Shown in pieces: positions 20,325 through 24,576 of a stretch of DNA of 64,000 nucleotides (its first letter is position 1; every line of letters starts with the position of its first letter). A program made the translations under genes and the position numbers. Origin of the DNA: Sparassis latifolia (Eukaryota > Basidiomycota > Agaricomycetes > Polyporales > Sparassidaceae); assembly GCA_018466975.1 (NCBI GenBank), contig CM031556.1, positions 3,100,001 through 3,164,000 of the forward strand, in the 5' to 3' direction. The notes below the pieces were generated by a model. The model was not told the origin of the DNA. It worked only from the letters and a program-made list of their open reading frames with translations, and did no database searches.

Positions 20325-20330
20325 GATTAG
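20325..20330. repeat. Target-site duplication, left copy
   Basis: GATTAG immediately before the first base of the left inverted repeat. It is identical to 22407-22412, directly after the right inverted repeat. Confidence 0.85.
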
Positions 20331-20550
20331 TATGGAGGTCGTTTGGTTACGGTTCGTTTAAGGACAGATGCCGTGATGCCGACGCGTGGCTCTCACGTGG
20401 ATTGCCCAGGAGACTCAGTCACCCTCTATGTGCGCTTGTATTTTTCCTTAGCACCTGCAATTCGTGCCGCACGTCGTGCTCGCCGTGCGTCGGCTCGAGC
20501 TATCGTCGCCGACGACGAGCTCCGCTACATAATATATGCCAAAATTCTCG
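20331..20550 (+). repeat. Left terminal inverted repeat (220 bp)
   Basis: Reverse complement of 22187-22406. Bases 1-60 match perfectly. Later matching blocks include CCGCACGTCGTGCTCGCCGT and the inner end GCCAAAATTCT. Confidence 0.9.
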
Positions 20551-20769
20551 CTGCTCCCCGACATATGACTACAACAACTTTTCTGCAATTTGCTAGTCTG
20601 TCCTGGCGCACGTCTGCGCCCGATCCCGCGTCCAGCCTGAGTGCATGAGCTCGGCACTGGCCCATTGACAAGTACTCCGGGCTGTTTCGCGGCTGTACTC
20701 AGGCCCATGTTGGACAGGCTGCATAGGATGTTGTCTTTGGAGCATCCTATTTTTTTTTCCAACCTGAAG

Positions 20770-21673
20770 GGCAAGCTGCCGTCCTCATCACCGGCTGCAC
20801 GTAAGTACATCACATACCACATCATATCTCGCCCACTCACCACATCTGGCACAGCGGAGGCATCGGGCAGGCGACTGCATGCACCTTTGCCCACTCCGGC
20901 TGCTCAGTAGCAGTGCACTACCAGGCGGCATCCTCGCACGCCAAGGCAGATACGCTCATCTCCGACCTCAAGGCCATTGCCAGCTCCGACCCGCGGTTCG
21001 CCATCTTCCACACAGACCTGTCAAACTACGATGAGGTGCGCCGCCTCCATGCTGAGGTTGTGCAGCAGATCGGGCATCCGGACATCCTCTTCGCAAACCA
21101 CGGCATCGCGGGGCCTAAGATTGGCCCGCTGGGCAATATCAATGACGTGCCCATGGAGGTGTTCGAAGAGATGTGGCGGATGAACACCGGCACGAGCTAC
21201 ATGCTTGCGCAGCTCTGTGTGCCACACATGGAAGCGCAGAAATATGAACATGCCATTTTCACGTCGAGGTGCGCTCTGCGTGCCCCTTTGCCCGAAATCC
21301 ATGGTAATTCATGTCTATCATAATCAGTATCGCTGCAGGTAATTCTCTGCATCGGGCACTCGTCCGACGCCGCAGATCTTTCCACCATCTACCAGGTAAC
21401 AGTGGACTCATCGAACCCCACTACACATCATTCAAAGCCGCCCTGCATGGCCTGGTCCACTGGCTCTCCCTGTGGTATGCCAAGGACGGAATCAAATCCA
21501 GTGCTATTGCGCCCGCACTCATCGAGGATACCGCCACGATGGCGAACCTGATGCCTGAGATGCGGAGCAAGATCCCCATCGGGCAACTTGGGAAGCCCGA
21601 CAAGATGGCCTGCAGGACATGCTGCAGTCACCCTCTTCCCCACTCGTACTCGCGCCGACGCCCGCGCACATGA
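20770..21673 (+). pseudogene. Captured short-chain dehydrogenase/reductase fragment inside the element
   Basis: Three exons can be joined: about 20770-20800, 20855-21268 and 21376-21673. They encode AAVLITGCTGGIGQATACTF (the TGxxxGIG cofactor loop), a Rossmann core, DILFANHGIAGPKIG (the NNAG position), HYTSFKAALHGLVHW (catalytic YxxxK) and IPIGQLGKPDKMA. These are hallmarks of NAD(P)-dependent SDR enzymes such as 3-oxoacyl reductases. The fragment lacks a plausible start codon in frame: a stop lies just upstream and a T-run abuts the first exon. After KPDKMA the family's last ~30 residues are replaced by unrelated sequence ending at TGA 21671-21673. It therefore looks like a genomic, intron-containing fragment picked up by the transposon; expression is unknown. 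Confidence 0.75.
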
Positions 21674-22186
21674 AGAGCAGCAGTCAGAAGCTGGGGCAGG
21701 ACTCACGTGGCGGGTCATGCAAGCATATCAGCATGCAGTCCCTGGTGCCGACGAGCCGGCGGACAAGCCAGCAGCAGGTGCGGGAGCGCGAGAGGGAGCG
21801 GGAACGCGAGGGAGAATGCGATGTGGGGCTTAGCCTGCACCCATGTGTGATGGCGCCGAGCCCGGGTGGGTACCGCGCAATGGCGTAAGGGCGTTCGTCA
21901 CCGGTGCCACTGAACACTGGTGCGCCGCTGGTGAACGGGAACGGCACGGAGGCACCGAACACAAATACGTCCGAGCCCTTTGTGTATGCGCAGACACCGC
22001 GGGCAAGGGCACGGACTCACGCGAGGACACAATATTGGCGGGGGCAAACCGCATGGAGCCGAACGGCTTTGGCGTGGGGGCGCGCGGGATGAGCATGTAC
22101 GACCGCGAGCAGATGATGAGGGTTGGGGAGCAGGAGACAAATACTTCTTGCAATGTATAATGGTAGTAGTGGAAATGAAAATATTT

Positions 22187-22406
22187 GCAAGAATTTTGGC
22201 ATATATACTATGTAGTGGAGCTCGTCGTCAGCGATGATGAGCTCGAGCCGACGCACGGCGAGCACGACGTGCGGCAAGAATTGCTAAAGAAAAAATACTA
22301 GTGCACGTAAGGGGTGACTGAGGTCTCCTGGATAATCCACGTGAGGGCCACGCGTCGGCATCACGGCATCTGTCCTTAAACGAACCGTAACCAAACGACC
22401 TCCATA
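22187..22406 (-). repeat. Right terminal inverted repeat (220 bp)
   Basis: Inverted copy of 20331-20550, ending CGACCTCCATA at 22406. Confidence 0.9.
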
Positions 22407-22412
22407 GATTAG
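22407..22412. repeat. Target-site duplication, right copy
   Basis: GATTAG directly after the right inverted repeat; matches 20325-20330. Confidence 0.85.
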
Positions 22413-22672: not shown

Positions 22673-24576
22673 GTGATGACTTCGTTCCTCGCTCCCACTG
22701 GTGGCGCCTCCCTCTTACTATCCTTCCGCCTTCAAAAACACACTGTCCTGGTTATAGGGTCCAACAATTTGGCAGCATCTCGCGCCTTCGCAGCGTTAGA
22801 AGCAGACTCTAGGGTGATAATTCTTGCCAAGGGTGGAGTTCAGACCGCATGTAGCGAGCTCCAATGGCGCAATAGCCATGGTCAGCTCACCATCGTGGAT
22901 TGGGATGATCTGCCTTGCACGTCAGGTAGTGGGGTGGGTAGTGATCATGAAGCTGATGCAGTAGATGCATATGTTTCTGGTATCGAGGGACTCCGTTTTG
23001 TCTGCGTAACAGACACGATCCTCGGGCCGGAACCCTTCCTGCGTCGCAGTCGTGCCTCCGCTGCGCGGATCGCCCGTGTCTGTCGCGCTCGCAACATACA
23101 TATCAATGTTACCGATATGCCTGACCTGTGCGACTTCTCCTTCTTATCGACTCACCGATTTTACGACACCGAGACTGGGCTTGCAACACCCTTGCAAATT
23201 GGAGTTACTACCAACGGTCAAGGATGTCGCTTAGCTGGCCGCCTGCGGCGAGATATCGTCGCAAAGTTGGCTCGCGAGGCGGGCGGCGCTGTTGCCAAGG
23301 TTGGGAAACTGCGCAGTCTTGCGAAGACGTCTGACGAGGCTGTATATGAAGAGGGCGACGTGGGGCTGTACGAGGAGGAGACGGCGTCGACGCCAAACGT
23401 CCCTTTACCTCCGAGGAGCGCCAATGAGACTATTTTGGAGAGTGCGCGAAGGCGTATGAAGTGGGTTGCGCAAGTCAGCGAATATTGGCCGATTCAGAAG
23501 CTCGCTGGCTTGACGGAAGAAGAGATGGTCCGAGCACTCGATGGAAGACATGGCCTCCCAGGAACAGCCTCGTCGAATCTGCCCGCCGAAGTTTTCCCTG
23601 AGAACGGCGGAGAAAGCTCACTGCACTCGCTGGCGATACCCGCTGCACGTCGCGGTCGGATTTTTCTGGTAGGATCCGGACCTGGCCATCCTTCTCTGCT
23701 CACGCTCGCCACGTATGCGGTTCTCACGAAACACGCGAACCTCGTCCTTTCTGATAAGCTTGTACCCGACGTAGTACTTGCACTCATCTCGCCAAAAGTG
23801 GAAGTGCGCATTGCGCGGAAATTCCCTGGTAATGCGGACAATGCCCAGTCCGAGTTGATGGAGGCTGCCATTGAGGCTGCGGGGCGCGGCTTGACAGTAG
23901 TACGGGTGAGTTGAATGGCTTTCACCCTGTAAATTGCATTGATGTATGTCTATAGCTCAAGCAAGGGGATCCGACTGTATACGGGCGTGCGGGCGAGGAG
24001 GTGTTGTATTTCCGTGAACACGGCTTCGAACCGATCGTCATTCCAGGCGTCAGTTCTGTGCTTGCAGGGCCCACGTTTGCCGGAGTCCCCGTCACGCAGC
24101 GCGGAGCCGCAGAGTCTTTTGTCGTCTGCACAGGCGTGGGGCGGCAGGGCAAAGAAGTGAGGCTGCCGGGATACGAGAGGTCTCGCACGCTGGTCATCTT
24201 GATGGGCGTTGCGCGGTTACCGCAGGTTCTAGAGACCCTGCTGTCCCGCGCGGAACAGCCCTCGTCGCGGCGGAACGGCGCTTCGTATCCTGCATGCACG
24301 CCCATTGCCCTCATCGAACGCGCGTCCATGCCGGACCAGCGGGTGATCTTCTCCACATTACGGGACATCTTGGCTGCGCTGGAGAGCGCTGGTGAGCAGC
24401 GTCCGCCGGGTATGCTCGTGGTGGGTTGGTCGGTGCTCTCGCTGTGGGGGAAGGGCGACGTGAGCATTCTCGATGATGGGGCTGCCGAAAGAGACGAGGA
24501 GAGGCTGATGACATGGTTAGGAGATAGACGATGGCGGATTGATGATGGGCTAGATGCTGGATGGAAAGATCTGTGA
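22673..24576 (+). CDS. MET1: Siroheme synthase: precorrin-2 dehydrogenase-like domain fused to uroporphyrinogen-III C-methyltransferase
   Basis: Two exons, 22673-23905 and 23956-24576 (50 nt intron), encode 617 residues. Residues about 15-250 form a Met8/CysG-N type Rossmann domain (KHTVLVIGSNNLAASRAFAAL, then HINVTDMPDLCDFSF and GVTTNGQGCRLAGRLRRDI). Residues about 325-600 are a SUMT domain with GRIFLVGSGPGHPSLLTL, a DKLVPDVVL loop, LKQGDPTVYGRAGEE and PGVSSVLAGPTFAGVPVTQRG, all standard SAM/uroporphyrinogen-III binding motifs. The enzyme adds two methyl groups to uroporphyrinogen III, and the N-terminal domain probably oxidises or chelates, giving siroheme for sulfite and nitrite reductase. 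Two ATGs are adjacent (22673, 22676); the first is used here. Its upstream region was split from SRP14's by the mobile element. Confidence 0.92.

Follow-up and report, generated by a model that had tools for sequence, protein, structure and literature searches.

The element at positions 20331-22406 of the window (the whole 64,000 bp stretch analysed, C5:3100001-3164000 of the 41.4 Mb, 22-contig Sparassis latifolia genome) is, with a probability that we put at about 0.8, a non-autonomous, gene-capturing (Pack-type) DNA transposon, which its ends and target duplications (TSDs) would place in the IS3EU superfamily. Pieces of two genes are present in this element and pieces of four others in its sister copies, giving six host source genes at unlinked loci that were matched at the DNA level and are still in place.

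Self-alignment of the window element returned terminal inverted repeats (TIRs) of ~220 bp each, with the arm lengths and coordinates given by the original prediction, which had been made from the letters alone. The inverted-repeat comparison yielded 96% complementarity between 20331-20414 and 22323-22406, and further arm blocks in the element self-alignment reach inwards to ~20551 and ~22187. On re-reading, the outer 60 bases of the left and right TIRs were indeed identical and GATTAG stood on both sides, as had been claimed (Table 1). Leaving the TIR matches aside, 94% of the interior is covered by two unlinked loci, an SDR gene and a kinase gene. The interior had earlier been described as an intron-containing SDR fragment without its C-terminus; that fragment is present, with a +2 bp frameshift close to its start, but it is not the only cargo, the right third of the element (21610-22135) deriving from a second locus on another contig. 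A Pfam NAD_binding_7 frame (window 22679-22903), which we take to be the start of a MET8/siroheme-synthase gene, starts ~270 bp to the right of the element, so the insertion is located directly upstream of a likely host gene.

Table 1. Parts of the window element and source loci of the cargo carried by the family (positions without a contig name are those of the window).
Feature	Position	Strand	Basis or match
Left target duplication copy, GATTAG, 6 bp	20325..20330	.	Direct sequence reading; boundary by comparing copies
Left TIR, begins TATGGAGGTCGTTTGGTTACGG	20331..20551	+	Self-alignment, comparison of copies; outer 60 bp the same as in the right TIR
Captured piece from the upstream part of the SDR donor locus	20560..20733	+	86% against the C20/C4 copies
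Captured SDR (adh_short) gene fragment, introns kept	20765..21609	+	88.6% over 845 bp to donor
Captured 3' tail of kinase gene	21610..22135	+	87.5% over 527 bp to C7:2550240-2550756
Right TIR, finishes CCTCCATA	22187..22406	-	Self-alignment, comparison of copies
Right target duplication copy, GATTAG, 6 bp	22407..22412	.	Direct sequence reading; copy comparison
Source 1, SDR gene	C20/C4		845 bp at 88.6% plus upstream piece; Pfam adh_short
Source 2, kinase gene, 3' tail	C7:2550240-2550756		527 bp at 87.5%
Source 3, arginine methyltransferase (PRMT) gene	C9		Pfam PRMT_C
Source 4, ING-like gene	C4:2443164		486 bp at 97.5%; Pfam ING match below cut-off
Source 5, gene with MgtE match in neighbouring upstream frame	C11:2999292		88%
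Source 6, UPF0029 gene	C10:103839 or C1:46188 (equal matches)		91%

With the 224 bp left TIR as query, at least 25 matches were obtained across the genome, which sort into 10 two-ended elements (that of the window included), one left-truncated element and two isolated matches (C12 and C1). The outer 21-mer, allowing up to three mismatches, matched the genome 21 times and its reversed control not once, so the TIR family occurs beyond chance. Perfect 6 bp TSDs flank seven of the ten two-ended copies, all seven being different (GATTAG, AACTAG, ATCTTG, ATTTTG, CAAGAA, ATAATC and CATGAG); the copy at C10:3138226 has a perfect 5 bp TSD (ACGAC), two others have near-match flanks (C3, TGGCG/CGGCG; the 27 kb C10 copy, TGAGGG/GGAGGG), and none of the ten shows a TSD of 8-10 bp. 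TIR length within the family is 220-330 bp, and the ends read TATGG..CCATA with the exception of one end of the C5:1071 kb copy (CCAAA). The original prediction had named as grounds for abandoning the reading either a TIR without other copies in any genome, combined with the same structure at the orthologous site in distant species, or a local inverted duplication; many further TIR copies lie in the genome, with pieces of four more genes as cargo, and it is next to inconceivable that 20331-22406 is a local inverted duplication or an artefact of assembly, because the same ends recur at 10 dispersed sites across several contigs and the duplicated 6-mers at seven of these sites all differ.

The 7.9 kb C3 copy was considered as an autonomous element and rejected, being a Pack copy into which a Copia-like LTR retrotransposon has inserted (LTRs of 371 bp, 99.2% identical). 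The greater length of the 3.5 kb C2 copy comes from a 1.1 kb CACTG..CAGTG insertion, which is also found at four other places (98-99%). The C11:246 kb element is truncated at its left end and its right end is interrupted by an insertion that seems to have an 8 bp duplication; one stretch of this copy matches C3:1620575-1621080 at 85%. A stretch of ~214 bp at C11:246.8-247.1 kb recurs at 93-99% identity at 37 or more other places (at least 37 among the 40 of 197 candidates scored), and is probably a young miniature element lying within a single copy of the family.

The source loci lie on other contigs and the cargo of other copies differs, which upholds the earlier reading of a Pack-type arrangement formed by gene capture, and the family consists of non-autonomous TIR elements with fragments from six unlinked host genes, as in Pack-TYPE transposons. 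The donor with which the SDR fragment was compared lies at C20/C4 (88.6% over 845 bp), and its best relatives were from Sparassis crispa (98%) and S. latifolia (97%). The 9.3 kb stretch that holds this donor is present twice (C20:194500-204000 and C4:3361800-3371300, 99.5%, in opposite orientation and near the C4 end), as either a subtelomeric duplication or a haplotype remnant. From its translation, the kinase donor at C7 is presumably of the casein kinase I/YCK type, the frame that precedes the captured part giving a Pfam kinase match below the cut-off. Pfam gave no match for the captured part of the fifth source, of which a 77% paralogue is located at C4:3163772. The cargo retains introns and the source loci are still in place, so the capture proceeds by copying of DNA. 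Coverage by the six sources was 39-71% in four other short copies, falling to 26% for C2 and to 9% for E11b (two copies that carry further insertions), so more cargo sources may remain.

The IS3EU assignment compares the family with a fungal signature of a 6 bp TSD and TAYGG..CCRTA ends (PMC12730594) and with complete families ending TA..TA (PMC10045372), as given in the sections of these papers used here. The Pack family has TATGG..CCATA ends, a TIR of ~220 bp (>30 bp in IS3EU) and the 6 bp TSD in seven of ten copies (5 bp in one, a near match in two), in agreement with the original suspicion of an uncommon superfamily other than MULE. Pfam rva_4 (integrase core) matched the genome 21 times, at 10 places, five of which (C2, C10, C13, C5 and C7) begin TATGGCGGCC ~1.2-1.3 kb before the rva_4 match. 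Both ends were located for four of these five elements, which measure 17.5-20.2 kb, run TATGG..CCATA and have TSDs that are perfect over 6 bp in three cases and alike at 5/6 bases in the fourth; two short relatives also have perfect 6 bp TSDs. A search with the IS3EU end pattern returned 18 matches (12 forming six pairs, six unpaired) against one in the reversed control. The first 13 bases of the Pack family and of the C5 and C7 rva_4 elements are alike at 11 positions (by eye), and beyond the outer bases no similarity was found between the Pack-family TIR and the IS3EU element ends. At the other five rva_4 places (C9, two on C11 and two on C6) the stretches that were read showed no TATGG start, and no TIR pair was found in 7 kb at the C9 locus; our confidence in IS3EU is slightly reduced because half of the rva_4 places did not show the shared start. 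Two of the 17.5 kb IS3EU elements (C2:1422028-1439487 and C10:1491781-1509263) are 97.9-99.1% alike in their main pieces over ~12 kb, and this likeness, together with their perfect 6 bp duplications, implies that they moved fairly recently.

The window element had been predicted to lack a transposase, and tblastn indeed found no rva_4-like match in the copies; the autonomous copy with a transposase between similar TIRs that the same prediction envisaged was not found in the genome. None of the 10 rva_4 places has rva_4 between Pack-family TIRs, and the best tblastn match to an IS3EU transposase in the 27 kb element and the other copies had a non-significant E of 0.15 (queries being five exon translations from two rva_4 loci), so the mobilising enzyme is assigned by ends and TSD only. 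The TIRs would be bound by an IS3EU DDE transposase (Pfam rva_4) from another locus, and this enzyme would move the Pack element by cut and paste. DUF6589 (PF20231), tried as a possible IS3EU transposase, gave 27 genome matches.

TIRs of ~220 bp are common in MULEs, whose TSDs measure 8-10 bp. The long TIRs of the window element resemble those of MULEs, and, in the part of the literature cited, plant Pack-TYPE elements such as Pack-MULEs are defined by the gene fragments that their TIRs enclose (PMC8903248). It is nevertheless very improbable that the element is a Pack-MULE (Mutator-like) whose target duplication is atypical, the TSD being 6 bp in seven of ten copies and 8-10 bp in none, and the TATGG..CCATA ends matching IS3EU instead; MULE membership was rejected on this TSD and these ends. 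TATGG ends also differ from typical hAT ends. The hAT families with a 6 bp TSD are referred to as hAT6 in the relevant part of PMC12730594.

It is likewise quite improbable that a KDZ transposase drives the family with the 27 kb element (C10:2875398-2902558) as its autonomous parent, even though this element has family TIRs (332 bp, 78%) between flanks alike at 5/6 bases (TGAGGG/GGAGGG) and contains a KDZ domain, in a genome with 164 KDZ matches (PF18758, counted exon by exon and hence representing fewer genes). The KDZ gene has its own pair of large inverted repeats around it (at ~4.8-7.7 kb and ~17.6-20.0 kb in the stretch fetched) and is interrupted by an in-frame stop, so the KDZ block looks like a nested insertion; a target duplication was sought around this block, the edges of which could not be fixed, and none was found. 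Fragments of PRMT and GH47 are found towards the outside of the 27 kb element, and the KDZ TSDs quoted from the published account are 8 bp (Zisupton and Dileera) or 7 bp (Kyakuja, which has CA..TG ends and is without TIRs) (PMC12730594). The family, with its 6 bp TSD and TATGG ends, was not placed in KDZ. Large tandem and inverted repeats surround KDZ in the 27 kb C10 copy, which is possibly a giant, multiply nested element.

Turning to how a Pack-type family with IS3EU ends gained its cargo, the kinase-tail sequence is common to the SDR-bearing copies, the C2 copy and the C10:3138 kb copy, with a small part in the C10:4245 kb copy, and its presence beyond the SDR-bearing copies suggests that the kinase tail was gained before the SDR fragment. 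The SDR-bearing copies (window, C11:962 kb, C6, C3 and C5:1071 kb) share 84-97% mutual identity, and the occurrence of the same cargo in several copies indicates copying after capture; the end points of the SDR and kinase pieces differ between the C5:1071 kb and window copies. The newest cargo is the ING-like insert (97.5% to its donor), which lies inside the older PRMT cargo of the C10:4245 kb copy (E10c) and is flanked by two 78 bp copies of recipient sequence that are 96.2% alike. Since this divergence is similar to that between insert and donor, the duplication most likely arose together with the capture. The insert junctions are blunt or one-base (by eye) and are compatible with break repair and template switching, which could also leave the 78 bp scar. 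From the duplicated recipient sequence around this newest cargo we infer that a break or gap inside an element would be repaired by copying from an unrelated gene and then switching back, with a gain of cargo. Self-comparison of six of the 11 elements revealed a scar of this type in E10c, no flanking duplication in W, E5a, E10b and E2, and two short pairs in E11b (50 bp at 90% and 44 bp at 84%).

Since the scar was seen in a single copy of the six compared, more weight was given to cargo gain by the Pack-CACTA model, in which two elements insert in tandem and the DNA between them is re-mobilised, and break repair plays no part. This is a published mechanism for plant Pack-TYPE elements, in the portions of PMC8903248 and PMC13317346 concerned, and the window copy would suit it in that SDR sequence adjoins the left TIR and kinase sequence the right TIR. 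Against it, the donor loci lie on different contigs, no left-TIR match or remnant was present in the seven donor loci fetched, and the newest cargo is internal to PRMT cargo with the 78 bp recipient duplication at its edges; we regard tandem capture as possible, if rather unlikely.

The Pack-family copies are decaying. Four of the five SDR copies are frameshifted, with a common +2 bp shift near the SDR start and a loss of 4 bp in two of them. In-frame stops were absent from the SDR copies over the 134-137 codons compared, and dN/dS was 0.29-0.39 between donor and copies and 0.42-0.81 between copies, the latter on few changes; the stop-free codons and the donor-copy ratios leave room for the view that some constraint may act on the SDR cargo. 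Changes of C>T plus G>A relative to the reverse numbered 94/30 for the window copy (CpG accounting for 70 of the 94, compared with 40% of the C+G in the donor) and 89/34, 100/30 and 122/28 in three other SDR copies, and the excess was absent from the C5:1071 kb copy (54/47). Such an excess in four of five SDR copies is consistent with cytosine methylation.

Two S. crispa gene models match family cargo. P0013 (354 aa) is 99.3% identical to the C11:962 kb copy over 146 aa, kinase-tail sequence included, while two stretches of P0014 (266 aa) match the window copy, at 94.4% and 97.8%, with no better copy among those searched. A far-reaching interpretation, which we consider unlikely to hold as a whole, would make IS3EU a gene-shuffling system of mushrooms that gains unlinked cargo by break repair and template switching, leaving the flanking duplication as a scar, with at least one chimeric SDR/kinase-tail frame (C11:962 kb copy; S. 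crispa P0013) expressed as a new protein.

Judged from its sequence, the Sparassis family represents the known Pack-type principle, here in a fungus and with IS3EU ends and a 6 bp TSD. In the literature examined, Pack-type capture has been described for plant superfamilies, and the plant Pack-TYPE elements (Pack-MULE, Pack-CACTA, Pack-hAT and others) are likewise non-autonomous TIR elements with gene fragments, their cargo being duplicated by mobilisation, in the sections of PMC8903248 that deal with them. The Sparassis family differs from these in being fungal, in its IS3EU ends and 6 bp TSD, and in one capture with a 78 bp flanking duplication that does not obviously fit the tandem-insertion model. 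Helitrons, which are rolling-circle transposons and are not known to have TIRs or TSDs, are unlike the Sparassis family, which has both. The gene-capturing Helitrons of Pleurotus ostreatus, as summarised in PMC4289320, also place host gene fragments in a basidiomycete transposon, and transduplication in Pyrenophora tritici-repentis, as summarised in PMC3538342, is also transposon-linked gene copying in a fungus. Closest in ends are IS3EU/GingerRoot elements (including fungal TET+ IS3EU and Zymoseptoria Styx), which share TA..TA ends, a usually 6 bp TSD and TIRs >30 bp (excerpts of PMC12730594, PMC10045372 and PMC10853768). According to the same excerpts, fungal IS3EU elements encode a transposase and whole accessory genes (TET/JBP, alpha-kinase), whereas in the short Sparassis copies no transposase was found, the TIRs are 220-330 bp and the cargo is chimeric fragments of ordinary host genes.

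Among the titles and abstract openings listed from the open-licence PMC literature, none reported a Pack-type IS3EU element, or such elements in Sparassis. A 2026 review states, in the passage concerned, that an undiscovered mechanism for the capture of unlinked cellular sequence by DNA transposons might still exist (PMC13317346). The C10:4245 kb copy, a young capture with its edges preserved, makes the question of capture mechanism testable. Transposon cargo matches two public gene models of an edible mushroom (S. crispa), and it appears that in fungi the little-studied IS3EU group can gather host genes and reshuffle them.
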